64,000 nt of DNA from Prevotella sp. (GTDB lineage Bacteria; Bacteroidota; Bacteroidia; Bacteroidales; Bacteroidaceae), in NCBI GenBank assembly GCA_017471465.1, contig JAFUTI010000001.1, forward strand, positions 1 through 64,000, given 5' to 3'. This document shows, piece after piece, positions 354 to 33,305 of this stretch (position 1 is the stretch's first letter; every line of letters starts with the position of its first letter). Under the pieces are notes generated by a model. That model did no database searches and was not told where the DNA came from. It saw only the letters and a program-made list of their open reading frames with translations. A program made the position numbers and the translations under genes.

Positions 354-387
354 AAAAAAATGGTGCAGCCACGTTGGCCGCACCATT
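354..387 (-). terminator. Intrinsic terminator of the pectin locus
   Basis: On the minus strand a 13-bp stem (one G-U pair, 3-nt loop) starting AATGGTGCGGCC is followed by a run of T residues (A-run at 354-360 on the plus strand). It lies 25 bp downstream of the stop codon of the last gene of the susC-susD operon and is a standard Rho-independent terminator. Confidence 0.9.
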
Positions 388-411
388 GTTAAGAATAGAG
401 TTGGGAAGTGA

Positions 412-14658: not shown

Positions 14659-17600
14659 CTACTGCATGCGTTGCAGGCCTTCCCAGCGCACGTTCCACGT
14701 GCCGTCCTGAGGGAAGCCGGGGTTGTTCGGATTCTGGCAGCCGTCCCAGCCGGCGCACATCATGGCGATGGCGGTGAGCAGGGCACCGTTGCCGGGCAGG
14801 TAGATACGCAGACGGTCGGCCGTCTGGAAGTTGTGGCCGTTCTTGAGATAGGTGTTCTTCTGCGTGTCGATGAGCAGAGCCTTCAAGGCGGTCTCCGGCT
14901 GTCCGAGACGGGCGGCAGCCATGGCCGTCATGCCGTAGTCCCAGCCCCACGTCGTCTGCCAGTTCCAGTTCTGCATCACCCACTGGATCGTCTTTTCGGC
15001 AGCGACGGCATTGCTGCACAGGGAACCCGAGGGGAGCAGGCCAAAGGGTCCGAGGACGGCGGGATGGTCGTTGCGGCATTTCTCTTCAAACGTCTCGGTA
15101 GCCAGAACGGGCTGTGCTCCGCTGGCAACGGCATCGAAGGGGTCGAAGGACTTGAGGCCCGTGGTCTTGCCCTTAGACAGCCCGGCTGTGTAGATGCCCT
15201 CTTTGGTCTGTGGCAGGGGTGACATCTTGCTGCAGATATCGTCCCACTTCGCGTTTCGGTTCAGCCCCTGGCGTTCACGCCATAGGTTGGCTACACGTAG
15301 TCCGTACTGCCAATAGGCCAGTTCGAAGGGATGGTTGAAAGAGAAGTCTTTCGACATCGACTCCTGCATGGCGGTGGCACCTTGCAGGTAGTAGCGTTTC
15401 GTCTTGCTGTCGTAGCTGACGAAGTCGGCCATGAACTCAGCCGTCTCCTCTACCTGCTGGCCGTATGTCTTGAGTGTCTCTGCGGAAGGGGCTGCCCTGT
15501 AGAGCTCTTCGGCCATATATATATAATGTGGCTGCTGCCAGATGAGGAACGAGCCTGTGTTCGACGGTGCCTCGCCAGCCCACGGGTCGGTCATCTTCAT
15601 CCAACGGACACCCTTAAAACCTTGGCGGCGGGCAATCTCCCTGGCGACGGGGTAAGCTGCGGTGTTGTACCAACGGAGCACGTTGGCAACCACTTCTGGA
15701 CGGTGCCATAATGCGAAGTCGACAAAATGCCACCAGGTCATCTCAAGATGAGGTCGGCCGAACCATGAGTTGTAGGTCAGGCCGGTCTCTTGTGGCGGCA
15801 TGTTGTTGGCGCAGTTCACCTGAGTGAGGTATTGCGACAAGACGACACGACGTTCCAGCTCATGGGCTCGTGGGTCGGTACACAGACTGAAGTCGGCGAT
15901 GGCGCCATCCTGCCACCAGCGGTTCCAGGCCCTGATGGTAGCCTTAAGCTCCTGGTCGAAGACGAGGGCGGGGGCAGTGGCGGTGCTACTGCACAGCGGA
16001 CTGTACTCAGCCTTGAAGGCGAGAATGTCGGAGGTGGTGGTCAGGGTGAAATAATGACGATCACATTCGGTGATGGTGGCATCGCCCTGCCATGTGAGGG
16101 TGAGGTAATAACGGGTGGAGTCGAGCAGGTGCTCGATGACGGCGTTGTTAGTATTGGAAACAATGATTCGCGACGTGTGTCGCTCAGGTTTTGACCAATC
16201 GGCAGCAGCATCCGCATGTTTTCCTGTAGGATAGGGCAGACGGATGGCAATGCGGGCCCGACCGTCGCATAGCAGTGGTGTCTTGATGCGGTAGATGACT
16301 GCATCCTTGTCCTGTAGGGCGGCCGTGGTGACGTCGACAGTAGTACCGTCGGCTTGGAATGTCGACTCTATCTTGCCGTCATATAGCTGGAGCTCCTGAC
16401 GGATAGCCCTTAGGTCGTTGAGGGTGACAGACTTACCTTGCGCATCTTTCATTTCCAAACCGATCGTTCCGAGGTTCAGCCGATGTGGGTTTACACGGAA
16501 ATACTCTGTAGCAGCCACTTGACGAGGGGTGTCGCCTTTGGATGCCTTGTATTCTACGGCATACACTTCCTGATGTCCGTGGCCGAGGTCAAAAGACTTC
16601 TCCGTTTCGGACGGTGTCAGGGCACCGGTGTTTTCGAACTTATGCCAGCCCCAGTCAGACATGGCTGTCAGAGGCACACCTGCCTCATAATCAAAAGGGA
16701 ACGACTGCAGGCCGGTGACGTCGACCGTCGTAGCAAAGTGACCATTGCCCACCGTCAGCGAGGCCAACGGGTCGGCCTCGCTGATGACGGGATTATTGCG
16801 GGTGACCACGGCCTGGCGGTTAATCTCGGCAGTGGTGTTCTGCGTGTCGTAGCCCATTGCCTCCATCTCAAGCGAGGCCCAGATGAACGGGCCGAGGCCC
16901 TTGGCGTCGTTGTCACGTATCTTCTCGGAGAGGTAGTAGTCGTAGCCTCCGTCGCGACGGCGGTTCTCCTTGACAGTGCCCTTGGGGTTTACCGTCTTCA
17001 ACGCAGCCTCCACCTCAGGCGTTGCGGCGGGACCAAGTCCTGCCACGCTGCAGCAGTTGGTGAGCGAGATGGTCTTGTCGGCGTTCACTTTGATGAAATT
17101 GTTAATCATACCACGGTAGGCCTTGATACCGGCATCGCGATATTTGGCTCCGACATAACCCTTGCGGTAGGCTTTCAGTAAGGCATAGGTGAACATGGCG
17201 GAACAGGTGGATTCCAGGTAGTTCCCGTCTCGGTTCGGGCTGTCCATGACCTGATACCATACGCCAGTGTGCTTGTCTTGCCACTTCAGTATGGCGTCGA
17301 AGTCTTTTTGCAGCAAGTCGATGACCTCCGAGCGGCGGCTGTAGGTCTCGGGCAGGGCGTCGAGCACCTCGATGAGTGCCATGGTGTACCAACCCTGGGC
17401 GCGGCCCCAGCAGTGCTGCGAGAGTCCCGTCTCTGGGTCGGCCCAGAAGGTCTTGCGCGTCTCGTCGTAGGCATGGCGGTTGAGGCCGGTCTTGGGGTCG
17501 AGGGTACGCTGATAGGTCACTTTCAGCTGGTTGACGGCGTCGTCGTAGATGGCGGTGATGTCTTTGGCCTTCTTCGAAGTGATAGGTGCTGTCAGACAGC

Positions 17601-19557: not shown

Positions 19558-20337
19558 TTATTTTTCCAGTGCAGCAAAGAGGCGGTCGAGGGCAAGGTCG
19601 GCATTGCCTTCGGCTTCGTCGAGCAGCGTTACGAACTTCGAACCGATGATGGCGCCGGCAGCGTTGTCCTGAGCAGCTTTCAAAGTCTGGCGGTTGCTGA
19701 TGCCGAAACCGATCATGCGGGGATTGCGGAGATGCATAGCGTCGATGCGTCGGAAGTAGGCCTGCTTCTGTTCGTCGAATGACTTCTGGGCGCCGGTAAT
19801 GGCAGCTGAAGAAACCATATAAATGAATCCGTCGGTGTTCTCGTCGATGAAACGGATTCGCTCTTCAGACGTCTCCGGCGTGATGAGCATGATGACGCGC
19901 AGGTCGTAGCGGTCGGCTATGGGCTTCACCGTCTCTTGATAGTCTTTGAAAGGCAGGTCGGGGATGATCATTCCCGAAACGCCTGCCTCGACACATGACT
20001 GACAGAAGGCCTCAATGCCATAGTGCAGGATGGGGTTCAAGTATCCCATGAGGATAAGCGGTGTATGTACCTGGGCCTTAATGTCTTGTAACTGACCGAA
20101 GAGCTTGCAAAGGGACATGCCGTTCTTCAATGCTTTCGTGGCAGCTGTCTGTATGACAGGTCCATCTGCCAAGGGGTCGCTAAATGGGATGCCGACTTCG
20201 ATGAAGTCGATACCGCGACGCTGCATGGCCATGATGACATTGCCTGTCCCTTCGAGTAGCGGTGTGCCCGCACAGAAGTAGAGACTAAGCAGTTTCTTGT
20301 CGCCACGTTCTGAAAACACTTGGTTTATCTTGTTCAT
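19558..20337 (-). CDS. trpA: Tryptophan synthase alpha chain
   Basis: A 259-residue TIM barrel that cleaves indole-3-glycerol phosphate to indole and glyceraldehyde 3-phosphate; indole is channelled to TrpB. FIEVGIPFSDPLADGPVIQ contains the catalytic Glu and the family signature, and GFGISNRQT is the phosphate-binding loop. Length is normal. It is the last gene of the operon; its start overlaps the trpF stop by 4 bp (ATGA type), which indicates translational coupling. The alpha and beta genes are at opposite ends of the operon, as usual in Bacteroidota. Confidence 0.97.
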   Translation of the reverse strand: MNKINQVFSERGDKKLLSLYFCAGTPLLEGTGNVIMAMQRRGIDFIEVGIPFSDPLADGPVIQTAATKALKNGMSLCKLFGQLQDIKAQVHTPLILMGYLNPILHYGIEAFCQSCVEAGVSGMIIPDLPFKDYQETVKPIADRYDLRVIMLITPETSEERIRFIDENTDGFIYMVSSAAITGAQKSFDEQKQAYFRRIDAMHLRNPRMIGFGISNRQTLKAAQDNAAGAIIGSKFVTLLDEAEGNADLALDRLFAALEK

Positions 20338-21005
20338 TGTCGTATGGTTTTTATGAATTCTCTAAGTTTGTTTACATCTTTGAGACCAGGCTCGGTCTCA
20401 AAGCGTGAGTTGAGATCGATGCCGATGCACTGGGGGTGATGGAATGTCTTGATATGCTCAGCGTCATCGGGGCCGATGCCACCACTCAGCAGGAACGGCT
20501 TTTTGCCGTCGTAGGCCTCGAGTACCGACCAGTCGAACTGGTTACCACTGCCTCCTACTGACTGACATTTGTTGTCGAAAAGGAAGTAATCGACACAATC
20601 TTCATACTCTTTATAGGCCGTGACGTCATTCCTATTGCCGATGCTGATGGCCTTGATGAACTGGATGCCGGGACGGATATCGGGGTCGAGTGTGCGACGC
20701 AGGTTACGGATGACGGTTGGAGACTCATGACCGTGCAGCTGGATGAGGTCGAGTCGGAAGTTGACAACACGTGTGATGATGTTCTGTGGCATCTCATCGA
20801 CAAAGACACCGACGCGTTTTGGCTTGTCGGAAGGGAAATGGCTGACAGCAGGGGCACGGTCGGGGATGATGCCAGCGTGTGTCGGTATCATCGTCACCAG
20901 GCGTGGCGACTTCTGCCAGAAAATCAATCCTATCCAGTCTACTCCTAACTCTGCGACTTGGCGTATGTTGTTGCCGTCGCGCATACCACAAACTTTTACT
21001 ATCAT
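20334..21005 (-). CDS. trpF: Phosphoribosylanthranilate isomerase
   Basis: A 223-residue TIM barrel converting N-(5-phosphoribosyl)anthranilate to the carboxyphenylamino deoxyribulose phosphate. KVCGMRD at the N-terminus holds the catalytic Cys, LIQLHGHES and LLSGGIGPDDA are family motifs, and the C-terminal GIDLNSRFETEPGLKD carries the conserved Asp and the substrate loop. It overlaps trpC upstream and trpA downstream by 4 bp each. It is separate from trpC, unlike the fused enzyme of enterobacteria. Confidence 0.97.
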   Translation of the reverse strand: MIVKVCGMRDGNNIRQVAELGVDWIGLIFWQKSPRLVTMIPTHAGIIPDRAPAVSHFPSDKPKRVGVFVDEMPQNIITRVVNFRLDLIQLHGHESPTVIRNLRRTLDPDIRPGIQFIKAISIGNRNDVTAYKEYEDCVDYFLFDNKCQSVGGSGNQFDWSVLEAYDGKKPFLLSGGIGPDDAEHIKTFHHPQCIGIDLNSRFETEPGLKDVNKLREFIKTIRQ

Positions 21006-21739
21006 ATTTTTTCAATAAACTTTTTTAATGCTGTTCCAGGGTCTTCTGTCTTCATAAATGTCTCGCCGATAAGGAATCCTTGGAAACCGGCTTGACGCAG
21101 CTCCCGTACGGTCTGTGGATTGCCGATACCACTCTCACTCACCTTTATGGCACCCTTCGGTAGTCGTTCTGCCAGACGGTAGGAGTTCTCGACATCGGTG
21201 ACAAAAGAACCGAGATTACGGTTGTTGATGCCACAGAGGTCCGGCTTCATTTCGGTGTATTCCAGTTCGCGTTCGTCGTGCATCTCAAGGAGAACCTCAA
21301 GTCCCAATTCATGGGCGGTGTGCAGGAGAGTTTGGCACTCCTGTTTACTGAGGCAGGCGGCGATGAGCAACACGGCGGAGGCACCGCAGAGCAAGGCCTC
21401 GTAGAGCTGCAGCTCGTCGACGACGAAGTTCTTATATAATATAGGTAAGGTGACGCCGCTCTGGCGGGCCGTGCGGATGAAGTCGTCGTGGCCACCGAAG
21501 TAGTGGCGGTCAGTGAGGATGCTCAGGGCGGTGGCGCCGTTCTGCTGATACGACAGGGAAATCTGGTCGGGGCGGCCGTCCTCCTTGATCCACCCCTTGC
21601 TGGGCGAGCGGCGCTTAAACTCAGCGATGATGCCGGTCGGACTCTGGAGCAGGGCCTGACGCAGCGAAGGCTTCTGGCGGCGCATGTGGGCCAGTTCCTC
21701 GCGCTTGGTAGCGATAATCTGTTGTAGGATGTCTGCCAT
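21002..21739 (-). CDS. trpC: Indole-3-glycerol phosphate synthase
   Basis: A 245-residue TIM barrel closing the indole ring. IAEFKRRSPSKGWI is the N-terminal substrate-binding signature with the catalytic Lys; ILYKNFVVDELQLYEALLCGA, INNRNLGSF and VSESGIGN are further family motifs. It lies 48 bp after trpD (the stretch holding the CTAG repeat) and overlaps trpF by 4 bp. Confidence 0.97.
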   Translation of the reverse strand: MADILQQIIATKREELAHMRRQKPSLRQALLQSPTGIIAEFKRRSPSKGWIKEDGRPDQISLSYQQNGATALSILTDRHYFGGHDDFIRTARQSGVTLPILYKNFVVDELQLYEALLCGASAVLLIAACLSKQECQTLLHTAHELGLEVLLEMHDERELEYTEMKPDLCGINNRNLGSFVTDVENSYRLAERLPKGAIKVSESGIGNPQTVRELRQAGFQGFLIGETFMKTEDPGTALKKFIEKI

Positions 21740-21752
21740 GATGGTTCTATAT

Positions 21753-21790
21753 GGGTTAGATCATCTAGATATTCTAGATGGTCTAGGCTA
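21753..21790. repeat. 9-bp CTAG-cored tandem repeat between trpD and trpC
   Basis: Four 9-bp units of the form nnCTAGAnn (TTAGA, CTAGA, CTAGA and CTAGG cores at 9-bp spacing) fill the short trpD-trpC gap. The last unit contains the trpD stop codon. The same unit recurs in frame in valS at 61921-61965 and, more degenerate, at 60672-60716. Confidence 0.8.
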
Positions 21791-22786
21791 TGAATTGAGT
21801 TCCGCGAATTTCTTAAATGTACGGAGGGCGGCACCACTGTCGATACTTTCGCGGGCAATGGCGATACATTCTTCGATGCTCTTCTTGCCTTTCTCTAACA
21901 CTTGAATAGCGAATCCGGCGTTGGCCAGGACAATGTTCTTCTGGGCAGGTAGACAACGATTCTCCAATACTGTGTCGAAGATCTCCTTCGCCTCTGTCTC
22001 CGTGGCTCCGGCAACCAATTCCTCGGGCTTGGCAGTGGTAAAGCCAAGATCGGCGGGCGAGAAGATTCGTTCGTAGTTGTTTGTGGTCACCTTGAAGTCG
22101 CCCGTCAGCGAAATCTCGTCGTAGCCGTCGATGGAGTTGACGATGCCGAAGTCGATGCCGAGGCGTTGGTAGACCTGGTGATAGAGACGCATCTGGTCGA
22201 GGTTGGCTACACCGAGGAGCTGGCAGCTAGGCTGGCTGGGATTCACCAATGGACCAAGCAGGTTGAAGATGGTGGGGAAGGGGAGGGCCTTGCGTATCGG
22301 ACCGACGAACTTCATGGCACGTGCAAAGAGCTGGGCGTGCAGGTAGACGATACCTGCTTCATCCATGCAACGGTTCAGCTGGTCAAGGTCGTCTGTGAAC
22401 TTCACACCGTGCTGGGCGATGACGTTAGAGGCTCCAGAAGTCGAAGTAGCCGCATAGTTACCGTGTTTGGCTACCTTGTAGCCGGCACCTGCAATGACGA
22501 AACATGAGGTGGTGGAAATATTAAACGTGTTCTTACGGTCGCCGCCAGTACCAACGACATCGATGTAGCGTTCGCACTTCAGGGGAACAGGGACACCCGT
22601 CTCTAAGATACCATCGCGGAAACCGAGCAACTCGTCGACGGTGACGCCGCGCATCTGCAGAGCTGTCAGGAGGGCCGTTATCTGCTCTGTCGGGTACTCA
22701 CTCTGGGTAATACCTATTAATATCTGCTTCATCTCCTCGCGGGAGAGCTCCTCGTGGTTCAGGAGCTTTTCTAAAATCTCTTTCAT
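21788..22786 (-). CDS. trpD: Anthranilate phosphoribosyltransferase
   Basis: A 332-residue enzyme transferring the phosphoribosyl group of PRPP to anthranilate. VVGTGGDRKNTFNISTTS is the glycine-rich PRPP motif, followed by KHGNYAATSTSGASNV (anthranilate and phosphate binding) and LGPLVNPSQPSCQLLGV. The N-terminal helical domain (LLNHEELSREEMKQIL) is normal. Not fused to trpG, which is a separate gene 31 bp upstream. Confidence 0.97.
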   Translation of the reverse strand: MKEILEKLLNHEELSREEMKQILIGITQSEYPTEQITALLTALQMRGVTVDELLGFRDGILETGVPVPLKCERYIDVVGTGGDRKNTFNISTTSCFVIAGAGYKVAKHGNYAATSTSGASNVIAQHGVKFTDDLDQLNRCMDEAGIVYLHAQLFARAMKFVGPIRKALPFPTIFNLLGPLVNPSQPSCQLLGVANLDQMRLYHQVYQRLGIDFGIVNSIDGYDEISLTGDFKVTTNNYERIFSPADLGFTTAKPEELVAGATETEAKEIFDTVLENRCLPAQKNIVLANAGFAIQVLEKGKKSIEECIAIARESIDSGAALRTFKKFAELNS

Positions 22787-22817
22787 ATTGTTTCTGTTTT
22801 TAGTGTCATATTGTTTA

Positions 22818-23381
22818 TTATAAGTACAGCCAGTTCTGCAGCATCTTTCTGCCGTCGGGTGTCAAGACACTCTCGGGATGGAACTGTATGCCGTGAATGT
22901 TCAACTCTTTGTGCTTTAGAGCCATGATGTAACCTTCGTCACTCTCAGCAGTTACATCTAAGCAATCGGGGAAACCGTCGCGAGAGACAATCCAGGAATG
23001 GTAGCGCCCCATAGTGATACGTTGCGGCAGACCGAAGAACAGCGGATCGTTACCGAGTTGTGTCCCTTCGGTGGCCACACCGTGGAAGACATCACTCAGG
23101 TTCTCAAGATGGGCGCCGAAGACTTCGCCGATAGCTTGGTGGCCGAGACAGACACCGAGGATAGGCTTGCGTCCGGCGTAGGTACGGATAACGTCGCAGA
23201 GCAAGCCGGCTTCCGAGGGGATACCAGGGCCTGGGCTAAGTACAATCTTGCTAAAGACTTCAAGGTCGGGAAGCTGGAACTGATCGTTGCGCAGCACGGT
23301 AACCTCTGCTTTCAGTTCACGTAGCAGGTGCGCCAGATTAAAAGTGAACGAATCATAGTTGTCGATGATGGCTATTTTCAT
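22818..23381 (-). CDS. trpG: Anthranilate synthase glutamine amidotransferase subunit
   Basis: A 187-residue class I glutamine amidotransferase supplying ammonia to TrpE. DNYDSFTFNLAHLL opens the protein, LSPGPGIPSEAG is the oxyanion strand, LGVCLGHQAIGEVFG holds the nucleophilic Cys, and HGIQFHPESVLT holds the His-Glu pair. It overlaps the trpE stop by 4 bp. It may also serve p-aminobenzoate synthesis, as such subunits often do; no pabB is visible here. Confidence 0.96.
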   Translation of the reverse strand: MKIAIIDNYDSFTFNLAHLLRELKAEVTVLRNDQFQLPDLEVFSKIVLSPGPGIPSEAGLLCDVIRTYAGRKPILGVCLGHQAIGEVFGAHLENLSDVFHGVATEGTQLGNDPLFFGLPQRITMGRYHSWIVSRDGFPDCLDVTAESDEGYIMALKHKELNIHGIQFHPESVLTPDGRKMLQNWLYL

Positions 23382-24769
23382 AATTGCGCTGCTATTTCTA
23401 TGGCGCGACGTAGCGCACCTAGTTTGTTGTTAACTTCTTGTAATTCATACTCCTCATTACTCTTGGCAACGATACCGCCTCCAGCCTGGAACCACAGCAC
23501 TCCACCGCGCGAGACGAACGTGCGGATGGTGATGGCCTGGTTCAGTGAACCGTCAAGCCCAATGATACCGATACATCCGCCGTAAGCGCCACGGTTGTGT
23601 GGCTCGTACTCCGAGATGAGTTGCATGGCGCGAACTTTTGGCGCACCGCTGAGCGTCCCGGCAGGGAACGTGTCGATAAACGCTTTAATGGGATCTTTGT
23701 CTGCATCCAACTCACCGCTGACACGGCTTACCAGATGGATGACGTGTGAATAATATTGGATATCCTTGTAGTAGTCCACCTTGACGTTATGACAGTTGCG
23801 TGAGAGATCATTACGAGCCAAATCGACGAGCATGACGTGCTCGGCATTCTCTTTGGGGTCGTTACGAAGGAAGTCTGCTCCCCGGCGGTCGGCGTCGGCA
23901 TCGCCCGTCCGCTTCGTAGTGCCGGCGATAGGGTCGATGTAGGCTCTTCTGTTGTCAATGCGACAGTGGGTCTCGGGCGATGACCCAAAAATGCGGAACC
24001 CACCGAAGTCGAAGTAAAAAAGGTAGGGTGAGGGATTGATGCTGCGTAAGGCTCTGTATAGCTTGAAATCGTCACCCTCAAAACGCTGTACGAAACGTCT
24101 GGAGAGGACTATCTGAAAGACGTCGCCGCGCAGACAGTGCTGGATGCCGCGGCGGATGTTCGCCTTGTGCTCCTCGTCGCTCAGTGTCGAACAGACGTCG
24201 CCAACAGGATGGAAGTCATACTCGCGGACGTTGTTGCGGTTCATGGCCTTCTGGATGGTGTCGATATCCGTTAAGTCGCCTAGAGTCACAAGTTTCAGCT
24301 GGTTGTTATGATGGTCGAAGACGATGACCGTCTCGTAGAGGACATAGAGCATGTCGGGGGCGTCGTTTCGCTCCTGTGTCTCGTCTTTTACGGCAATGTT
24401 CTCGAAATAGCGCACGGCGTTGAACGATGTGTAGCCGAAAAGGCCGCAGACAGCAGCGTCGTCGCCTTCGATGTGGATATTGTCGATTAGCGTGTGGATG
24501 GCTTCAGCGCATCCGAAGTCAGTATCCAAGGGCTTGCTGATTGTCCTCCCGTTGGGGAAACTGACGTTGGCCAAGCCATGCCCGATAGCAACTGAGGCTA
24601 TGGGATGGATGCCTATGAAAGAGTGTGAATTTCCCTGGTCGTGATAGTCGGAACTCTCCATCAGCGCACTCTGCGGGTATAAATCCCGTAGTCGCATATA
24701 GACGCCTACAGGGGTGTAAAGGTCTCCCCAGATGGTGCGGCTAGTTGTCGTGTAACTAAAAGTTTCCAT
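23378..24769 (-). CDS. trpE: Anthranilate synthase component I
   Basis: A 463-residue chorismate-utilising enzyme. The N-terminal half carries ALMESSD, corresponding to the LLES feedback element that binds tryptophan. The catalytic half has FQIVLSRRF, GSSPETHCRI, PIAGTTKRTGDADADRRGAD and PAGTLSGAPKVRAMQLI, all standard. The start codon lies inside the last codons of trpB (14-bp overlap), so the two are tightly coupled. Regulation is expected both by tryptophan feedback and by the upstream attenuator. Confidence 0.96.
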   Translation of the reverse strand: METFSYTTTSRTIWGDLYTPVGVYMRLRDLYPQSALMESSDYHDQGNSHSFIGIHPIASVAIGHGLANVSFPNGRTISKPLDTDFGCAEAIHTLIDNIHIEGDDAAVCGLFGYTSFNAVRYFENIAVKDETQERNDAPDMLYVLYETVIVFDHHNNQLKLVTLGDLTDIDTIQKAMNRNNVREYDFHPVGDVCSTLSDEEHKANIRRGIQHCLRGDVFQIVLSRRFVQRFEGDDFKLYRALRSINPSPYLFYFDFGGFRIFGSSPETHCRIDNRRAYIDPIAGTTKRTGDADADRRGADFLRNDPKENAEHVMLVDLARNDLSRNCHNVKVDYYKDIQYYSHVIHLVSRVSGELDADKDPIKAFIDTFPAGTLSGAPKVRAMQLISEYEPHNRGAYGGCIGIIGLDGSLNQAITIRTFVSRGGVLWFQAGGGIVAKSNEEYELQEVNNKLGALRRAIEIAAQL

Positions 24770-25964
24770 ATTCCTGAGCTAGGTTTTTATTGTTAAGATA
24801 AGTCTCTATGTCCTTGTCGCCTCGGCCGCTGACCGTCAGCACAACGACATCGTCGGGTTTGAACTGCATCTTAGAAAGGGCAGCAACGGCGTGAGCTGAC
24901 TCAATGGCTGGTATAATCCCTTCCATACGTGTCAGTTCATACCCGGCACGAATGGCTTCGTCGTCATTGATGGAGAGGACTTGCGTACGTCCCTTCTTGG
25001 CCATGTTGCAGTGCATCGGCCCCACGCCTGGGTAGTCCAGACCCGCGCTGATGGTAAACGCCTCCTGAATCTGCCCGTCGTCGTCCTGCATCACCAGCAT
25101 CTTCGCCCCGTGCAGGATGCCCACCGTGCCGCGATGAATCGTCGCCGCCGTGTAGTCCGTGTCCCAGCCGTGACCACCGGCCTCCGCCAGCACGATCTTC
25201 ACGCGGTCATCGTCCATGTAGTGGTAAATCGTGCCGGCGGCGTTGCTCCCGCCCCCGATGCAGGCCACGAGATAGTCGGGGTAGTCGCGCCCGATCTTCT
25301 CCTCCAGCTGCCACTTGATCTCCTCCGAGATGACGCTCTGCATCCGCGCCACGAGGTCGGGGTACGGGTGCGGTCCCATCGTCGAGCCGACGATATAAAA
25401 AGTGTCAGCCGGGTGACAGCACCAGTCGCGGATGGCCTCCGAGCAGGCGTCTGAGAGCGTCATGTTTCCCGTGCGCACGGGGTGTACCTCCGCGCCCAGC
25501 ATCTTCATGCGCTCTACGTTCGTATGCTGTCTTTCAACATCCGTCGCGCCCATAAAGACCTCGCACTTCATGTCCATCAGCGCGCACACCGTCGCCGTCG
25601 CCACGCCGTGCTGTCCGGCTCCTGTCTCTGCGATGATGCGCGTCTTGCCCATCTTCTTCGCCAGTAGAATCTGTCCCACGGTGTTGTTAATCTTGTGCGC
25701 ACCCGTGTGGTTCAGGTCCTCGCGCTTCAGATACAGCTGGCACCCGTACCGCTCGCTCATCCTCTTCGCAAAGTACAGCGGACTCGGCCTCCCCACATAG
25801 TCCTTCAGCAGCGCGTGATACTCCCGCTTGAACTCCTCGCTCTCCACAATCGGCCTGTACGCCTCCTGCAGGTCCTTCACGCACTTGTAGAGAATCTCCG
25901 GCACATACGCGCCCCCGAACTCTCCGTAAAATCCTTTCTCGTCAACTTGATAATTGCAGTTCAT
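24756..25964 (-). CDS. trpB: Tryptophan synthase beta chain
   Basis: A 402-residue PLP enzyme joining indole and serine. YGEFGGAYVPEIL starts the protein; KREDLNHTGAHKINN contains the PLP Lys; GAGQHGVATA, GGGSNAAGT (phosphate loop) and the C-terminal VVLTVSGRGDKD complete the TrpB1 family. It is the first structural gene, about 40 bp downstream of the attenuator terminator. Its G/C content looks higher than its neighbours' over about 25000-25900, but there is no sign of a frameshift. Confidence 0.97.
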   Translation of the reverse strand: MNCNYQVDEKGFYGEFGGAYVPEILYKCVKDLQEAYRPIVESEEFKREYHALLKDYVGRPSPLYFAKRMSERYGCQLYLKREDLNHTGAHKINNTVGQILLAKKMGKTRIIAETGAGQHGVATATVCALMDMKCEVFMGATDVERQHTNVERMKMLGAEVHPVRTGNMTLSDACSEAIRDWCCHPADTFYIVGSTMGPHPYPDLVARMQSVISEEIKWQLEEKIGRDYPDYLVACIGGGSNAAGTIYHYMDDDRVKIVLAEAGGHGWDTDYTAATIHRGTVGILHGAKMLVMQDDDGQIQEAFTISAGLDYPGVGPMHCNMAKKGRTQVLSINDDEAIRAGYELTRMEGIIPAIESAHAVAALSKMQFKPDDVVVLTVSGRGDKDIETYLNNKNLAQEYGNF

Positions 25965-26004: not shown

Positions 26005-26038
26005 GAAAAAGGCCCGTCGCAAGAACGACGAGCCTTTT
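26005..26038 (-). terminator. trp operon attenuator (intrinsic terminator)
   Basis: On the minus strand a 12-bp stem (one G-U pair, loop TTCTTG) beginning AAAGGCTCGTCG is followed by TTTTTC. It lies 39 bp after the stop codon of the Trp-rich leader peptide and 40 bp before trpB. A GCGCC segment (26060-26064) can pair either with GGCGC just after the Trp codons (26101-26105) or, through GCCTAT, with the 5' arm of this stem. That is the geometry expected for pause and antiterminator hairpins. Confidence 0.88.
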
Positions 26039-26076
26039 ATATTTCTCTGCTCCTTTATAGGCGCATGGCTATCTTC

Positions 26077-26133
26077 TCACGATTGTCCGAATCTTGAGTC
26101 GCGCCACCACCAAAAGTTTGCTGTTTTCTTCAT
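26077..26133 (-). CDS. trpL: trp operon leader peptide with three Trp codons
   Basis: An 18-codon ORF encoding MKKTANFWWWRDSRFGQS. Three consecutive TGG codons (26104-26112) lie in the middle. It starts about 29 bp after the -7 promoter box and is followed by the terminator hairpin. Tandem codons for the product amino acid between a promoter and a terminator are the hallmark of ribosome-mediated attenuation: a ribosome stalled at Trp codons would block the upstream hairpin and allow read-through into trpB. The upstream region is A-rich without a Shine-Dalgarno sequence, as is normal for the phylum. Confidence 0.88.
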   Translation of the reverse strand: MKKTANFWWWRDSRFGQS

Positions 26134-26161
26134 TTTGTGTCTTTTTGTTATTTGTCGGGTG

Positions 26162-26192
26162 CAAAATTACACATTTTATTTGAATCCCCAAA
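26162..26192 (-). promoter_or_regulatory. trp operon promoter
   Basis: The minus strand shows TTTG (26189-26192), a 19-bp spacer and TAATTTTG (26162-26169), a full match to the Bacteroidota housekeeping consensus. Transcription would start near 26155, giving a leader of about 190 nt before trpB that includes trpL and the attenuator. Confidence 0.88.
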
Positions 26193-26246: not shown

Positions 26247-28820
26247 TCAGAAGCTGAAAGCGATGACGTAGCGCATACCCCAGCGTGGACTGGTTGGCAG
26301 CTCTGTGTAGTTCAGGCGTCGCACGTATTCTACATGGAAAAACTTGAAGATGTTGTGCACACCAAGCACCATTTCCATATAGGGCTTCCGGGGGTTCATG
26401 ACGCTCACGCCTTCGGGGAAGTACATCAGGCTGGAGTTGCCCTGGTTCTCTGCCAAGAGGGGGTTGTTCTTGTCGCTGAGGTCGCCCCAGAGCATACGGA
26501 ACCCGATATACTCGCGCCAGTTCCACTTCTTGACGACAGGCAGGCGGTTGAAGAGCTTGCCGTTGAGGTCCCATGAAATCATAAACGAGGCAAAGCGGTC
26601 GTTGAGGAATTCCATCGTGTTGATGAGGTTGAAGGTTTCGGGCAATATGATGTACGACTGGTTAGCTGCGGGGAAGATGAGCAGCGGGTAGGGCACTTGG
26701 TTCCACTGTATGCCCGCCTTGAGGTCGGTGTCAATTTTTCCCCAACTGCTACCAAGCCAGAAACGCTTGTAGATGTGTGCTTCAGTATAGTTGTAGTCGT
26801 AGTCGCCGCCGAGGACATCCTTGAAGCCTCGGGTATGGGCGACACTAAAGACTGGTGCGTCGAGGTTGATGACGCGCCGCCTCAACTTATTGTTGATATA
26901 GGTTTCGCCGGGGGCATAGCGCAGGCGGGCAGTAACTTCGGTGGTGCGCAGGTATTCGCCATTGCCAGTCCTGATGTTCAGGTTCTGGCGCGGACGGTCC
27001 ATTGTCTGGAACGACATGGCTCCGCAGGCTTCATTCTCCTCGCGCTTGCCGCTGACGGTGAGCTTCATGCCCCAGTCGGTTTCGTATTCGAAGGTGGCCT
27101 GCTGGCGGTCGTAGAACATCATCTTGTTGGTCTCGGCCCACTTCAGCGCCACCATGAAGTTGTCCTTGTCGGTATCCATGAAACGGTCGCCAGGTGAGCA
27201 TACGTCGCGTGTGGACTGTACGGTGAGTGTGCGGCGCGGGAACTCGTGGGGCAGATATTTTTTTGCATTGAGCGAAAAAGTGGCCTCAGCGTTGTAGTAG
27301 TTGCGGTGGCTACCCCAGCCGTGGGCGTAGTATCCGCTGAGGAACAGATGCTTGTTGAGGTTGGCCGTCGTCTTGGCACTCAGACGGCTGCGCCAGCCGT
27401 CGACGTAGTTGCGCGTCAGGACAGTGTTCACAGGGCAGATATCGATATAGTTGGGGTTGCTCGTCTCTATGGAGTTCTCGAAGAGTGCTTTCAGTCCGAG
27501 AATAATGTACTTGAAGCCCTTGATGTTCGTTATGCCGTTGATGAACTTGTCCATACGACTTTCGCTCTTGGTGAGTTCCACTTGTCGGTACTGATTCCAG
27601 TAGTCCTTGTCGCGCATCTGGGCATCGGCCTCCGTCACCTCTTTCTTTATGCCCCGGAAGAGTTTGGGCGGTATGGGGTCGAAGGCATAGTCCGACAGGC
27701 GGGTGGTGCGGGTGACAATGGCACTGCCTTGTATGAAGTCGAAGAGTTTCAGCTCCGTTATCATATCGTCCTGCGTGAGTACCCATTGTCCGTCCGGCAG
27801 TTTCTGGTACTCCTGTAGAACCTGTAGCTGGTCGACAAAGTTGACGGTGCTCTGCTTCGGCACGGTGAGCTGACAGCGGCGCACGTGTAGCGTCGAGTCT
27901 TTCAGGATATATAGGTCGCCTCTGAATCCCATGTCGTGCTGGTTGTTAGGCAGAAAATGCAGATGTATGCAAGAATCGCGGTCAATGGTCAGCGTGTCCT
28001 CGATGTAATAGCGGTAGAAGGAGATTCCCTCGTTGCTGATAGGCGAGACAAAGGGGTACTGCAGCATACGGATGTGATCCTGATAGAGGTCGACATCGGT
28101 GAAAACATCCTTGACGACGGTGTTGATGATGTCGCCTGTCTGGAACAGGTCGTTGACGCTCTGCGACGTCTGGCCCTGAATGATGGTCTTCTCGGATCGA
28201 GGCTCGCGGCGATAAAACTTTTGCGAGACAGTCTCGTCGACAGAGACGGGCAGTATGAGCTTTCCCGTGTAGGGACTCGTCTCCACCTGGTCGAGGAGCC
28301 ACGAGTGGTTCGAGAAGGGTTTCTGCTCTAACTGTTCAGGCTTCAGGTCGTTGATGGCCAGCGTTATCTTCTCATACTTTTGGTATTGGTAGTAGTCGTT
28401 GACGGCCAGATCGTTCTTCTTCTTGGCGGCCACGACGCGGCGCATAAGCTCTACGGCGGGGTTGTCTTTGCGACTGTAGCGGTTGCGGCGGGCCTTGACG
28501 GTAACACCGCTGAGTTGACGGCTGTCGGGTTTCAGGGTGATGTTTTGCCGTGAGCGTGAGTGTTCTGTGATGCGGATGATGCGCGACTTGTAGCCCACGG
28601 CGCTGAATGTCAGGTTCCATCCTGCGTGTCGGGCTATGGTGTATCGTCCGTGGCTATCGGCTATTGCCGAAATGTTGTGACCTTCGTAGACGACGCTTGC
28701 GAAGCCTATGCTATCGCCCGTCTCGGCATCTTTCACCACACCGGTTATCTGCTGTGCATTGGTTGGTAGCGCAGCCGTCATTAGCAGTGCAAGCAGTATG
28801 AAGTAATGTCGGCAGTTCAT
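26247..28820 (-). CDS. DUF5686-type outer-membrane protein with regulatory-like domain
   Basis: An 857-residue protein: signal peptide (ends TNAQ), a carboxypeptidase-regulatory-like beta domain (about 23-110, QITGVVKDAETGDSIGFASV), then a long DUF5686 region and a C-terminal beta-barrel ending in aromatic F at GMRYVIAFSF. The family is found in Bacteroidota outer membranes; its molecular role is not established. It overlaps the LolA-like gene by 4 bp and is the last gene of the ketosynthase operon. It may take part in placing the exported product in the outer membrane, or simply be read through. Confidence 0.85.
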   Translation of the reverse strand: MNCRHYFILLALLMTAALPTNAQQITGVVKDAETGDSIGFASVVYEGHNISAIADSHGRYTIARHAGWNLTFSAVGYKSRIIRITEHSRSRQNITLKPDSRQLSGVTVKARRNRYSRKDNPAVELMRRVVAAKKKNDLAVNDYYQYQKYEKITLAINDLKPEQLEQKPFSNHSWLLDQVETSPYTGKLILPVSVDETVSQKFYRREPRSEKTIIQGQTSQSVNDLFQTGDIINTVVKDVFTDVDLYQDHIRMLQYPFVSPISNEGISFYRYYIEDTLTIDRDSCIHLHFLPNNQHDMGFRGDLYILKDSTLHVRRCQLTVPKQSTVNFVDQLQVLQEYQKLPDGQWVLTQDDMITELKLFDFIQGSAIVTRTTRLSDYAFDPIPPKLFRGIKKEVTEADAQMRDKDYWNQYRQVELTKSESRMDKFINGITNIKGFKYIILGLKALFENSIETSNPNYIDICPVNTVLTRNYVDGWRSRLSAKTTANLNKHLFLSGYYAHGWGSHRNYYNAEATFSLNAKKYLPHEFPRRTLTVQSTRDVCSPGDRFMDTDKDNFMVALKWAETNKMMFYDRQQATFEYETDWGMKLTVSGKREENEACGAMSFQTMDRPRQNLNIRTGNGEYLRTTEVTARLRYAPGETYINNKLRRRVINLDAPVFSVAHTRGFKDVLGGDYDYNYTEAHIYKRFWLGSSWGKIDTDLKAGIQWNQVPYPLLIFPAANQSYIILPETFNLINTMEFLNDRFASFMISWDLNGKLFNRLPVVKKWNWREYIGFRMLWGDLSDKNNPLLAENQGNSSLMYFPEGVSVMNPRKPYMEMVLGVHNIFKFFHVEYVRRLNYTELPTSPRWGMRYVIAFSF

Positions 28821-29401
28821 TTGAATGTGTAGTTGTAGAATCTGTATTCTGTATAATTGTTGCCTTTCTCGTTCATGCGTAAAGAGCGCAATTCCGATGT
28901 CTTCGTATCGATGGTCAGCTGGAACGAGGTGAATAGTTGCCTGCGCGCGGCTTTTTTGGAGTCAGTTATCGGTGTGATGGTGAGCAACAGCATGGAACCT
29001 TGGCGGCTGACGGTCAAGTCGCTCAGTTTTGTGATGTCTTTCTCCCCGCCGGAAAGAATGCTTTCGAATACTGTCTGGAACGAGGCGAACTGTGGGTTGT
29101 TCTTGCTGCTGGTCTTATGCTTACGCCCTTTCACCACCATAGTGAAGTCGTTGCCCTGCATCAGTAGCTGGTCTTGTCCTTCGACGATGGTTATGGCCAC
29201 CTCTGAGGGAGCTATCATCATGAGTGTGCCCTTGGCGGTTTCGTCCTGGGTCCATGCAGCCTTGTGTGTGGTCTTCGTCACGCTGGCGGTGACGTTGCTG
29301 TAGTTCTTATACCGTGCCAACACCTTCTGGAAGTCGGTGGTTTGCGCTATTGATGCTGTCAGATGGCAAATTGTTGCCATAAATAATAATGCTTTTTTCA
29401 T
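28817..29401 (-). CDS. LolA-like periplasmic carrier protein
   Basis: About 194 residues from the ATG at 29401. The longer frame would begin with TTG at 29416 inside the upstream gene; the signal peptide MKKALLFMATICHLTASIAQ argues for the ATG. The body (VTASVTKTTHKAAW..ETAKGTLMMIAPSEVAI, later SFQLTIDTKTSELRSLRM) has the half-open barrel pattern of LolA-type carriers. LolA homologues occur in aryl polyene and flexirubin clusters, where they are thought to move the lipid product across the periplasm. Its place between the flavoprotein and the DUF5686 gene suggests that role, not housekeeping lipoprotein sorting. Confidence 0.82.
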   Translation of the reverse strand: MKKALLFMATICHLTASIAQTTDFQKVLARYKNYSNVTASVTKTTHKAAWTQDETAKGTLMMIAPSEVAITIVEGQDQLLMQGNDFTMVVKGRKHKTSSKNNPQFASFQTVFESILSGGEKDITKLSDLTVSRQGSMLLLTITPITDSKKAARRQLFTSFQLTIDTKTSELRSLRMNEKGNNYTEYRFYNYTFK

Positions 29402-29412
29402 ATCCTTGGTGT

Positions 29413-30828
29413 TCAATCTTTTTGGTTCAGTATTTCATCGACTGTCATCCGGGCTGTCATAGCAACTCCTTCCAGACCGTGTAGTATCAGGTTTTGACCA
29501 GTCAACAGCAGGTTGGCAATAGGGGTGCGGGGCGACAGTGTGGTCATCAGCAGTGAACGGCAGTCCTTGCGCAGGCCGTAGGCAGAGCCACAGGGCGATA
29601 GTGTATAGTCACGGTAGGTCAGCGGTGTGCTGGTGAAGACCTTGTCGATGGCGCCTGTCAGCCCTGGCAGTTGTCTCTCCGCCAGTGCTATGCATTCTTC
29701 GGCCATTCGCTGCTTTATGGCATTGTAGTCCTCGCCCCTTTGGCCTACTTTTGTGTTCTCCCATGGCTGGCACAATGTCCATAACATAGGGGTCAGCAGG
29801 TCAATTTGTCTGACATGGCTGCTGCCGTCTTCGGGCACACGGGCACTGACCATCACGCGGTCTACCCGTCCGCCGGCGTTAGGCTCGTCCCATACGTTAG
29901 CCTGGCGGAATATATATATGTTGTGGTTGAAATAGGGTAGGGTATGTGGCTTCAACAGCAGTGATGCCGTGAACATCCCATACGTGTTGTTTAGCATATT
30001 GATGCGTCGACGGAACAGATTCTTCAGGACAGTACTCTGCTTCACCCATCCAAATGTCAGGACGGGGTGTACATCGCTGATAAAAACATCACCTTCGTAG
30101 CTCTCGCCGTTGCTACAGATGGCGGCTGTGATTACACCGTTGTGCTCCTTCAGCTCTGCCACCTCAGCGTTGCAGCACACCTGTCCGCCGTTAGCTTCTA
30201 TGGCGCTGATAAGCGTACTGACGATAAGTCCTCCGTCACCCTGTAGACGCCAGCTGCCCTGTATGTAACTGCTCTGTCCGTGGGCGAAATGGAACAGTGG
30301 CAGCGACTCACGACGTAGTTCCGTTTTCAGCGATGTACCCGCCAGAACATTTATCAGAAGTTCGTCTTTGAATGAGCGGGCCAGGTAGTCATAGGCCGCT
30401 GTCTCGCCAATCTCCTGCATCGGCGGCAGTGTTCTCAGCAGGTCTGCATATTCGTGGAGTGCTGTCCGTTGCTGTGGAAACTGTTCTGCCAGCGTCTCGG
30501 CAAAGCGGTCGTAGCCTTCGGCAAAGGCGAAGGTGTCGCCGCCGATGGTCACTCGGTCGAAGCCCTCGGGGTCAAGTTTGTGCCAGTGAAGCGCTAGTAG
30601 TCCGAGGTCGGCAAACAGATGGTGCAACGGCTGCCCCTCAGCCAGTCCACCGACGTAGTGCATACCAGTGTCAAAGGCATAACCTTCGCGACGGTAACTC
30701 TGCAGACAGCCGCCTGGTTGCTTCTGGCGTTCGATTATGGTGATGTCTTTTCCTGCGCGTGACAACAGTAGGCCACAAACCAGTCCGCCGAACCCACTCC
30801 CTATGATGATGACTTTCTGGCGACTCAT
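29413..30828 (-). CDS. FAD-dependent phytoene-desaturase-like oxidoreductase
   Basis: A 471-residue flavoprotein. The N-terminal VIIIGSGFGGLVCGLLLSRAG is a Rossmann dinucleotide motif, IIERQKQPGGCLQSYRREGYAFDTGMH continues the CrtI/CrtISO-type FAD domain, and LNLILHGLEGVAMTARMTV-like sequence closes it (seen as LLLTGQNLILHGLEGV). Such enzymes desaturate or isomerise polyene chains. In this operon it probably acts on the ACP-bound or released polyene. The substrate is not known. It overlaps the exporter gene by 4 bp. Confidence 0.85.
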   Translation of the reverse strand: MSRQKVIIIGSGFGGLVCGLLLSRAGKDITIIERQKQPGGCLQSYRREGYAFDTGMHYVGGLAEGQPLHHLFADLGLLALHWHKLDPEGFDRVTIGGDTFAFAEGYDRFAETLAEQFPQQRTALHEYADLLRTLPPMQEIGETAAYDYLARSFKDELLINVLAGTSLKTELRRESLPLFHFAHGQSSYIQGSWRLQGDGGLIVSTLISAIEANGGQVCCNAEVAELKEHNGVITAAICSNGESYEGDVFISDVHPVLTFGWVKQSTVLKNLFRRRINMLNNTYGMFTASLLLKPHTLPYFNHNIYIFRQANVWDEPNAGGRVDRVMVSARVPEDGSSHVRQIDLLTPMLWTLCQPWENTKVGQRGEDYNAIKQRMAEECIALAERQLPGLTGAIDKVFTSTPLTYRDYTLSPCGSAYGLRKDCRSLLMTTLSPRTPIANLLLTGQNLILHGLEGVAMTARMTVDEILNQKD

Positions 30829-33305
30829 GGCTTTTTATGGTTTAGCCATCGGTAGACGGCAGGCTGAAGAACATACGAGAGAACAACGGCGGAAAGCAGG
30901 CCCACTAACGTAGAGAAACCTACGGATTTTATAGCCGGGTGGCTGGCAATAAGCATACTACTAACGGTTATGAGCAGGATGAGTGCGCTGAGGAAGATTG
31001 CCGTCTTATGATAGCTGAGTAGGCGGCAGTCGTTGCCAGTCAGTCCGTTCATAACGAAGATACTGTAATCGACGCCTATGCCGAAGATGAACGTCGAGAT
31101 GATGATACTGATGAGGTTAAAGCGTACACCGAAGATGTCCATCACACCCAAAACGACAAGCCAGCTCAATAGTATAGGCATGAAGCCCAGCAGAGCCAGT
31201 CGCCAACTGAAGCGGAAACTGACAAGTAGCACCGCAAAAACAAACGCCATCGACAGCCACTGTAATACGTCGAAGTCGCTGTTCATCTGTAGCAGGGTGT
31301 CGGTCGTATAATAATAGGTGTCGAGCACTAAAAGTGACGGTTCACTGGCCACCGCATTGCAGATGCGTATGTAGTCGCTCTCGCTACTGCGTATGGAGTC
31401 GTTAGCACAGCGTACGGAGGTGAAACAGAGAAAGTCGCCGCCGTAGCTCTGCTCGGTCAGCGTCGACTGGTAGCCCTCGGGGAGTACAGCGGCATTGTAG
31501 AGTGCGTCGGGGACGTAGTTGGCTGTGGCTGCTTCATAGAATGGCTCGAAGGCTTCTGGCCGTAGTCCTGCCTGTGGCGCTGTCTCGGCTATCAGGTGTC
31601 TTACCTGTGTCAGACGTTCTTGCGTCCAATGGCGATGCCATGCGTCGATGCGCTCCTGTTGTTGCTTGAGCGATACAAATATCTTGTTGGTCGGGGTGTA
31701 GTCTTTGACCAGTCCCATCTGTCTGAGTGAGTCAAGCTTGCGGTCGAGTATGGCGAAGTTCTCAATGGCCTCTTCCATAGTGTTTCCTTTGCTGGCAAAG
31801 TACTTCTGCTTGTCGCCAGTATAGGTTTTCTGGCGCAGTAGCTCCTCGGAGTGTGATGTCAGCTCGGCTTCGTAACCCAGATTGTGCATGTCGGCATCGA
31901 ACTGCGTGCCGCCATATAGGAAGGCTGTTATGGCTATGGCCAGCATAATGGCAATAGCCGCAAGCAGCGGTCTGTTACGGTCGAAGGGGTATGCGTTGAT
32001 GCGGTCAATGATGTTGAGGCCGTTTTTGCTACAGTTGGTGTGGAGCATTTGCGGCAGGTAGACGAGGCTGAAAAACGTCGTGCCGAGGATGGCGAAAGCT
32101 GCAAACAGGCCGAAGTCCTGTAGCAGGTCGGTCTTGATGAATATGAGTCCGGCAAAGGATCCTATCGTCGTCAGACATCCCAATACGACTGGCTTCACTA
32201 GGTGGCGCAGCATCTGTTCGGTGTCTGTCACGTACAGGTGGTGTGTCAACACATGAAGCACGTAGCTCATAGCCACGCCGAGTACAACGCCGCCGATGCC
32301 CAGTGCCAGCAGCGAGAACTGCCCCTTGATTCCGTACATAAGGCTTAGTGCGAAGAGTGTGCCGAAGACAACGGGCAACAGCAACAGTGGGATGGTGTCC
32401 CACCGGCGGAAGACGAGTAGGAGCAGCAGAATCACGAGCAGGAGTGCACCGCCAATGGTAGTGGTCAGATCGTGCTTGATTTGTGTGGAGTTGTAAAATC
32501 CGCTGGCGGGCGTGCCGTGGTAGCTGATGCGCACGTCGGGAAAGACCTCTGCGAACAGTGCTATCTCCTCGTTTATCATCTGGAACATAGCCGCCCCCTG
32601 TCCCGTGTTCGTTGCTGAGAACCGTGGGGTGATGAAGGCAATGCACACCGTGGAGTCGGGCACAAAGAAGTGTCCGTCGACGGTGTTGTAGCTGCCCGTA
32701 GCCATAAGTGGTGACAGCTGCCGTGCCAGCACATTGCGCATACCTATGGGGTCTGTCTGTATCAGTTCGGGAAACATACTCCCGAACTCGCCCGTCAGGT
32801 CGTCACGGTTCTGAGCCATTTGTCGAGCCACTTTCTCGCGGGTGAGCAGCGAGTCGAAGCTGGTGTAGACAGTCGTATCGATATATGCAGGCAGGTGCTC
32901 TTTCAGGTAGTCAATACCGTCGACCAGCAAGTCGTCGGGAAGCCGGTAGAACACGTTGCCGATAGTCTGTGAGACGGTGTCGCGCACCAACAATGTATCG
33001 ATAAAGGTGTCGCATACGGTCTGTAACTTCTCTGTTATCACCTCTGTCGGCTGAGGAGCAACGGCCTTATCACCTACGTATTCGAAGAGTAGGAAGGTCT
33101 TGTCCTTTATGCGTAGGTTTGCGAAAGCCAGCTTTGTCGAGCCATCCTCGTTTTTCGATGACGGCATTAGCTTGTCAATATCCTCTTCCAGATGGATGCG
33201 TGTGGCGAAGTAGCCGAAGACAGCCAGCAGGGCAGCCATCGACAGCCAGCACACTGCACGGTGGCTGTGGAAGTAATGGTATATTTTGACAAACAGTTCT
33301 GTCAT
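30825..33305 (-). CDS. MMPL/RND-family lipid exporter
   Basis: An 826-residue inner-membrane protein with two halves, each with one helix, a large periplasmic domain and five helices (LTTTIGGALLLVILLLLLVF, later ISIIISTFIFGIGVDYSIFVMNGL). FGIGVDYSIF is the usual RND proton-relay segment. MMPL-type exporters are standard parts of aryl polyene and flexirubin operons, carrying the lipid-linked pigment outward. It overlaps both neighbours by 4 bp (dehydratase upstream, flavoprotein downstream), so it is an integral part of the operon. Confidence 0.88.
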   Translation of the reverse strand: MTELFVKIYHYFHSHRAVCWLSMAALLAVFGYFATRIHLEEDIDKLMPSSKNEDGSTKLAFANLRIKDKTFLLFEYVGDKAVAPQPTEVITEKLQTVCDTFIDTLLVRDTVSQTIGNVFYRLPDDLLVDGIDYLKEHLPAYIDTTVYTSFDSLLTREKVARQMAQNRDDLTGEFGSMFPELIQTDPIGMRNVLARQLSPLMATGSYNTVDGHFFVPDSTVCIAFITPRFSATNTGQGAAMFQMINEEIALFAEVFPDVRISYHGTPASGFYNSTQIKHDLTTTIGGALLLVILLLLLVFRRWDTIPLLLLPVVFGTLFALSLMYGIKGQFSLLALGIGGVVLGVAMSYVLHVLTHHLYVTDTEQMLRHLVKPVVLGCLTTIGSFAGLIFIKTDLLQDFGLFAAFAILGTTFFSLVYLPQMLHTNCSKNGLNIIDRINAYPFDRNRPLLAAIAIMLAIAITAFLYGGTQFDADMHNLGYEAELTSHSEELLRQKTYTGDKQKYFASKGNTMEEAIENFAILDRKLDSLRQMGLVKDYTPTNKIFVSLKQQQERIDAWHRHWTQERLTQVRHLIAETAPQAGLRPEAFEPFYEAATANYVPDALYNAAVLPEGYQSTLTEQSYGGDFLCFTSVRCANDSIRSSESDYIRICNAVASEPSLLVLDTYYYTTDTLLQMNSDFDVLQWLSMAFVFAVLLVSFRFSWRLALLGFMPILLSWLVVLGVMDIFGVRFNLISIIISTFIFGIGVDYSIFVMNGLTGNDCRLLSYHKTAIFLSALILLITVSSMLIASHPAIKSVGFSTLVGLLSAVVLSYVLQPAVYRWLNHKKP

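Follow-up and report, generated by a model that had tools for sequence, protein, structure and literature searches.

The trp operon of this Prevotella genome is preceded by a short region that joins a promoter, a small reading frame with tryptophan codons and a terminator hairpin, which raises the question of whether the operon is controlled by attenuation and, if so, which RNA strands make up the switch. The window, i.e., the whole 64,000-nt stretch of DNA that was analysed, carries the operon on the minus strand. The locus is very probably best explained as a ribosome-mediated transcription attenuator of the trp operon and a divergent member of the Bacteroid-trp family (Rfam RF01692). A Trp-codon leader peptide with an attenuator was the core of the original prediction, and it finds support in a conserved peptide, terminator, promoter and alternative folds. 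The elements of the locus are as follows.

26189..26192, minus strand: TTTG, -33 element of the leader promoter (sequence)
26162..26169, minus strand: -7 element TAATTTTG, of the form TAnnTTTG (sequence and enrichment upstream of leaders)
26077..26133, minus strand: leader peptide ORF MKKTANFWWWRDSRFGQS, 18 codons, ATG from 26133, TGA at 26079..26077
26104..26112, minus strand: putative Trp sensor, three consecutive TGG codons (sequence)
26103..26107, minus strand: 5' strand of the leader hairpin base, GUGGC, overlapping the Trp codons (RNAalifold)
26090..26098, minus strand: segment 1, the 5' strand of hairpin P2, CUCAAGAUU
26076..26084, minus strand: segment 2, the 3' strand of P2, AAUCGUGAG, containing the leader stop codon
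26065..26069, minus strand: 3' strand of the leader hairpin base, GCCAU, whose GCC is also in the proposed antiterminator
26067..26082, minus strand: 5' strand of the proposed antiterminator, UCGUGAGAAGAUAGCC (pair conservation)
26017..26034, minus strand: 3' strand of the proposed antiterminator, GGCUCGUCGUUCUUGCGA, made up of the terminator 5' arm, loop and top of the 3' arm
26006..26038, minus strand: intrinsic terminator, a 14-bp hairpin at 26038..26007 with a T-run at 26010..26006 (sequence and covariation)
24756..25964, minus strand: trpB, the first gene of the putatively regulated operon (ORFs; NCBIfam TIGR00263 over its cut-off)
19558..24769, minus strand: the rest of that operon, trpE, trpG, trpD, trpC, trpF and trpA (ORFs and NCBIfam)

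The 18-codon ORF with three consecutive Trp codons is present in the sequence as first described, and the operon order trpBEGDCFA agrees with the window ORFs and their NCBIfam assignments. The curated NCBIfam cut-offs were exceeded by trpB, trpG_papA, trpD, TrpC and trpA, while the TrpE and TrpF ORFs gave strong matches to their own families under the curated cut-offs. A terminator hairpin with a T-run had been predicted with a 12-bp stem; hairpin and T-run are there, and RNAfold extends the stem to 14 bp with outer A-U pairs (-22.3 kcal/mol). Beyond the T-run of five T, 41 nt lead to the trpB ATG at 25964, practically the 40 bp given originally. The 197-nt leader folds with a z-score of -4.19, a value equalled by none of 200 shuffles. 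In a named collection, the closest relatives of TrpB belong to Prevotella or Prevotellaceae, many of them from rumen or other ruminant-gut assemblies; identity reaches 97% at best and is 91% to Prevotella ruminicola KHT3.

Both flanks of the locus hold further genes. Upstream on the same strand, a block at 26247-33305 encodes a DUF5686 protein with a CarboxypepD_reg-like domain, an FAD-dependent oxidoreductase-like protein, an MMPL family protein and a 199-aa protein without a Pfam match; as a guess, the block is possibly part of a polyene-type pigment cluster. Behind trpA, at 14659-19467, a 1602-aa ORF fuses GH28 and GH88 domains, which suggests a protein for pectin degradation.

The distribution of the leader was analyzed in 100 genomes: the window's own, 59 further members of its genus and 40 genomes representing other families within the order. 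Leaders were gathered from 65 trpB-upstream regions, of which 450 nt were read, and from 34 regions matching the RF01692 model; two or more adjacent Trp codons followed by a hairpin were required, and one leader was taken per genome. If more than one in-frame ATG was available, the start was set at the one closest to the Trp codons with a distance of four codons or more. Leaders with WW, WWW or WWWW were found in 61 of the 100 genomes, comprising 44 of the genus (window included) and 17 of the 40 from other families. The hairpin lacks an adjoining T-run in two of the 61 (L006 and L017), whose terminators were placed by hand. Another leader, L081, contains two units and was counted by its first only. 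Twenty-nine of the 65 trpB-upstream regions were left out, having no WW ORF in the 450 nt (L031 is a contig end); for regions of this kind, a leader was later found elsewhere in 17 genus and seven other-family genomes. L053 was omitted as a spurious WW ORF without a matching hairpin, as were eight of the 34 RF01692 regions (L086, L090-L094, L097 and L098) with no short WW ORF before the hairpin; the WW ORF of L097 has 35 codons and starts inside the hairpin.

A near-complete trpB, defined as a match with E below 1e-200, occurs in 45 of the 60 genus genomes, and 44 of these 45 carry a leader with adjacent Trp codons and a hairpin after it. The sole exception, G047, has no leader in the 450 nt before trpB or in the RF01692 search. 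The 15 genus genomes without near-complete trpB yielded one weak RF01692 match (G017, E 0.532), and this match is not a leader. The gene that follows the leader is trpB in 27, trpD in 16 and trpF in one of the genus members, and trpB in eight, trpE in seven and a TrpB-like gene in two of the genomes from other families (trpD, trpF and trpE were identified by eye against the window proteins, TrpB-like genes via NCBIfam). The leader therefore tracks the head of the operon, whichever gene stands there.

The promoter is also shared. TTTG at 26192..26189, presumably a -33 element by the Bacteroidota consensus, is spaced 19 nt from TAATTTTG at 26169..26162 on the minus strand, and we take TAnnTTTG to be the letters of the Bacteroidetes -7 element. 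In 52 of the 61 leaders this motif occurs no more than 75 nt ahead of the ATG (3.5 in shuffles), which upholds the predicted consensus promoter. A genome-wide count of TGGTGGTGG was uninformative, with 77 sites and 76 for the reversed control. Bacteroidetes are described as having a characteristic -7 element (PMC6847099).

The absence of a Shine-Dalgarno sequence before the leader had been considered mechanistically interesting. A GGAG-like motif precedes three of the 61 leaders, and the base at -3 is A in 43 of them. The absence is not special to this locus, being the norm of a phylum in which Shine-Dalgarno sequences are lacking (PMC6847099); for Prevotella bryantii, it was of no consequence whether one was added or left out (PMC3155529). 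Initiation of this kind adds no novelty here, because it is the rule in the phylum and has been tested in Prevotella bryantii.

The leader belongs to a described RNA family. RF01692 aligns over its full model, 1-131, with 31.6 bits against a gathering score of 49, and is the only RF01692 match at E <= 1 in the window's own genome; no Rfam match within the window attains the gathering score. Fifteen other sub-threshold Rfam matches (Thr_leader on both strands, BSnc120, MicC and others) were set aside as chance or terminator look-alikes. Bacteroid-trp was listed for Bacteroidetes in 2010, with 'y' for RNA and 'y' for cis-regulation (Weinberg et al. 2010, PMC2864571, Table 1), and a 2019 paper reports it upstream of the Flavobacterium psychrophilum trp operon and likens its structure to the trp leader of E. 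coli (PMC6414381). Given a full-length alignment under the cut-off and a published family, the window leader can be regarded as a divergent member of what has already been described. The two share the phylum (Bacteroidota, as read from the titles of the nearest TrpB relatives), the site upstream of trp genes, a Trp-codon ORF, the terminator 5' arm and, probably, a hairpin enclosing the Trp codons. They differ in that the window shows eight non-standard or broken pairs flagged on the first line of the alignment alone; these are marked in the consensus hairpin of the full-length alignment, of which the genus keeps the inner P2 and a 5-bp base. The RF01692 model, moreover, stops inside the terminator 5' arm and, built without pseudoknots or alternative folds, carries no antiterminator. 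Its cut-off was passed by only seven of the 100 genomes, although a leader was found in 61, and four of the genus orthologues are above it (G024, G030, G052 and G015); we treat this score as a threshold for making calls and not as a trait of the structure. Leader fold z-scores in this comparison were -1.95 for the window, -2.68 for the genus mean and -3.00 for other families.

Next, RNAalifold was applied to alignment A1 of the 44 genus leaders. The resulting structure consists of a leader hairpin followed by the terminator; in the hairpin, the Trp codons and a conserved GCC pair to form the base, and P2 is the tip. At the base, formed by GUGGC with GCC and the next two bases, pairs are kept in 44, 40, 44, 44 and 41 of the 44 sequences. 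In P2, CUCAAGAUU pairs with AAUCGUGAG in 97.7% of 352 cells; one pair changes from A-U to G-C in 12 of the 44 sequences, and 14 cells are changed on both sides, with none of 500 shuffles as high on pairing or on changes. The number of further pair types in P2, a weak measure, was matched by 41 of 500 shuffles. The terminator is paired in 95.4% of 614 cells, with changes on both sides at eight of its 14 pairs and in 74 cells, again unmatched in 500 shuffles.

This covariation bears on a different sensing mechanism, a TnaC-like arrest of the nascent chain in which free tryptophan rather than charged tRNA-Trp would be sensed. In its favor, the residues after the Trp codons (RxSRF/L) are widely kept in the genus. 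The same stretch is P2 at the RNA level, where the bases covary, and other families have different residues there; arrest by free tryptophan would also have the wrong sign for a biosynthetic operon. We consider this mechanism highly improbable, and the attenuator governed by charged tRNA-Trp remains the preferred reading.

The comparison further supports a conserved switch in which the stop-codon strand, UCGUGAG...AGCC, may either close the leader hairpin or pair with the terminator, where its partners are the base of the 5' arm, the loop and the upper 3' arm. The 3' strand of P2 is complementary to the terminator top, and the GCC that follows it to the base of the terminator 5' arm; the pairs of this GCC with GGC of the 5' arm are kept in 42, 44 and 44 of the 44 sequences. 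The proposed antiterminator has a 10-pair core, in which 94.3% of 440 cells remain paired; 15 cells differ on both sides, and 0/500 shuffles reach either value. At A1 columns 135:147 of the terminator stem, 12 of the 44 sequences have a C.A mismatch, and the 3'-arm base at this position keeps its antiterminator pairing to segment 2 in all 44, the 12 mismatched ones included. The full 16-pair antiterminator is kept in 77.5% of 701 cells; each of the six additional pairs survives in only 14 to 29 of the 44 sequences. Sliding the partner by +2 gives a covariation of 0.171 versus 0.169 for the full 16 pairs, and 0.182 versus 0.216 in register for the core. Further pair types were reached in 204 of 500 shuffles for the full antiterminator and in 128 of 500 for the core.

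Relatedness among the genus members could inflate the counts from A1, and two alignment-independent tests were therefore performed. In the first, the pairing of a leader with its own terminator was stronger than the mean of swapped terminators in 17 of 18 families (window included) and stronger than the shuffle mean in 17 of 18, with a mean z of -2.2 and 11 of 18 under 5% of shuffles; every one of the 17 swapped terminators was beaten in only four of the 18 families, and the window's own antiterminator duplex was no better than shuffles (fraction 0.21). In the second, the best partner of the terminator top fell at the stop codon in 39 of the 44 genus members versus 6.7 expected by length, and in 11 of 18 families versus 2.7 expected; in the other seven families it lies away from the stop codon.

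The original prediction had assigned the switch to other strands of the same attenuator, with GCGCC pairing to the Trp-codon region and GCCTAT to the terminator arm. The minimum-energy fold of the window leader does contain GGCGC:GCGCC. Across the 44 genus members, these five pairs are kept in 16, 30, 23, 44 and 34 sequences, a range of 16 to 44, and those of GCCT:AGGC, a helix of only four pairs, in 24, 30, 16 and 29, a range of 16 to 30. This version of the switch is very unlikely; the comparison supports a conserved alternative pairing of the kind anticipated for attenuation, which uses the stop-codon strand in place of GCGCC and GCCTAT.

The behavior of the window leader was modeled with an assumed ribosome edge of 13 nt, counted from the A-site codon's first base. 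With the ribosome at Trp codon 1, 2 or 3, the predicted antiterminator has a probability of 0.98-0.99 at the point where the 3' arm starts to appear. After another three bases, a stall at codon 1 leaves it at 0.11, and one at codon 2 or 3 at 0.94. With no ribosome, or with one at the stop codon, the terminator is at 0.93-1.00. After a few more bases are transcribed, the terminator wins at equilibrium in all ribosome states, so the choice between the folds must be kinetic; E. coli trpL, the control, gave the same picture for identical ribosome placements. A co-transcriptional antiterminator index over the 61 leaders did not discriminate (means of 0.99 for real and 0.72 for shuffled leaders) and is not counted as support, because 78% of 610 shuffled leaders exceed 0.5; without a ribosome the index is also high, at 0.66 for the window and above 0.5 in 37 of 61.

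The dominance of the finished hairpin at equilibrium in every state is what would be expected of a constitutive partial terminator with an incidental small ORF. Such an element is scarcely credible at this locus: the ORF and its Trp codons are kept across families and before different genes, and the stop codon coincides with the terminator-pairing strand in the same 39 of 44 genus members.

For the ribosome-mediated attenuator, comparison shows the Trp-codon peptide, P2 and the terminator, together with the promoter and the complementarity between the stop-codon region and the terminator; we infer stalling, coupling, the kinetic order and the response to tryptophan. RNA polymerase would make the leader, and translation of the peptide would begin without the help of a Shine-Dalgarno sequence. 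Under scarcity of charged tRNA-Trp, the ribosome would stall on the Trp codons, open the leader hairpin and cover or unwind segment 1, so that segment 2 plus AGCC would be free for the emerging terminator. These bases would pair with the base of the terminator 5' arm, the loop and the upper 3' arm as they emerge; with this antiterminator formed, the terminator would fail, and trpB to trpA would be transcribed. When tryptophan is plentiful, the ribosome would reach the stop codon and cover segment 2, allowing the terminator to form, and it should also form when translation does not take place and segment 2 is held by the leader hairpin.

Two features of the E. coli trp-type attenuator are found directly in the window, a Trp-rich leader ORF and an intrinsic terminator before the first structural gene; for the third, a mutually exclusive antiterminator that a stalled ribosome would free, computation and comparative evidence point to its presence. 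As in E. coli trpL, adjacent Trp codons are followed by Arg (...WWWRDSRFGQS in the window), and a leader hairpin, an antiterminator and a terminator are predicted to compete; control folds of trpL gave the terminator at full length and the antiterminator when shortened with a ribosome at the Trp codons, as here. The differences are that the first regulated gene would be trpB, not trpE, and that there is no Shine-Dalgarno sequence; homology is not claimed. Unlike in E. coli, the stop codon lies within the proposed antiterminator strand, whose partners include the terminator loop and the upper 3' arm in addition to the base of the 5' arm. Tentatively, and with more doubt than confidence, we suggest that the Bacteroidota trp attenuator might act by capturing the terminator loop and upper 3' arm, the stop-codon strand nucleating on the emerging loop and outrunning the 5' arm, with tandem units sharpening the response in some relatives; this geometry would be unlike that of E. 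coli, where the antiterminator captures the 5' arm. The literature searched, which covered few subscription papers, gave no description of the proposed antiterminator; the motif may be drawn in the supplement of PMC2864571. Novelty is low, the kind and the family both being known; the contribution here would be a refined antiterminator and a better-defined switch.

To extend the analysis across the order, a model (R1) was built from the 44 genus leaders and searched against 247 genomes. Matches were found in at least 132 of the 247 at E <= 0.01 and in at least 74 at 40 bits or more; those near 30-35 bits include bare terminators. Among 20 R1-matched regions inspected, seven have a WW leader (four of them tandem, L181-L184, and in addition L186, L188 and L199), two have leaders with spaced Trp codons (L185 and L187), two have His leaders (L192 and L198), and nine show nothing convincing.

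Two Trp-leader-plus-terminator units in series occur in five genomes of five families, at the following positions.

L081, 120-400, reverse strand: tandem units
L181, about 140-415: tandem units
L182, about 140-415, reverse strand: tandem units
L183, about 140-415: tandem units
L184, about 140-415: tandem units

Every unit comprises a Trp-codon ORF and a terminator of its own; in L184, the ORF of the first unit reads W-H-W in place of adjacent Trp codons. The tandem units precede trpE (identified by eye in L081), or trpB in L181; the window leader is one unit only. Such an arrangement would multiply and sharpen the response. In the literature searched, which included few subscription papers, we found no account of attenuators in series that serve a single amino acid, tandem trp units included. 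Salmonella mgtCBR likewise has two attenuators in one leader, sensing ATP and proline (PMC3641672); it differs in responding to two signals, whereas in the five relatives both units carry Trp codons.

In four genomes, a Trp-codon leader with a hairpin precedes a TrpB-like (trpB2-type) gene, and in two regions His-run leader peptides, MKRTVLHHHHHHYNGQ and MLFLSLHHHYLHILCGGIG, with a terminator-like hairpin precede a hisG-like gene identified by eye.

L082, 120-243: WWW leader before a TrpB-like gene
L089, 120-245: WWW leader before a TrpB-like gene
L185, 134-260, reverse strand: leader with spaced Trp codons before a TrpB-like gene
L187, 90-230: leader with spaced Trp codons before a TrpB-like gene
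L192, 82-220, reverse strand: His-run leader
L198, 135-260: His-run leader

The TrpB-like proteins of L185 and L187 were judged by eye and those of L082 and L089 by NCBIfam; a trpB search of the latter two genomes returned no near-complete trpB. L192 and L198 look like the same kind of attenuator for histidine; hisG gave no match in the window's own genome, which is estimated to be 63% complete.

The conservation of the leader in 44 of 45 trp-operon carriers indicates that leader-peptide attenuation of trp is near-universal among such carriers in one large genus of Bacteroidota and widespread in its order, whose ribosomes work without Shine-Dalgarno pairing. The Rfam model undercalls this family, with 7 of 100 genomes over its cut-off as against a leader in 61. 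A conserved, testable candidate antiterminator is now defined, and, if the proposed mechanism is true, transcription-translation coupling in Bacteroidota would become testable by a simple reporter.
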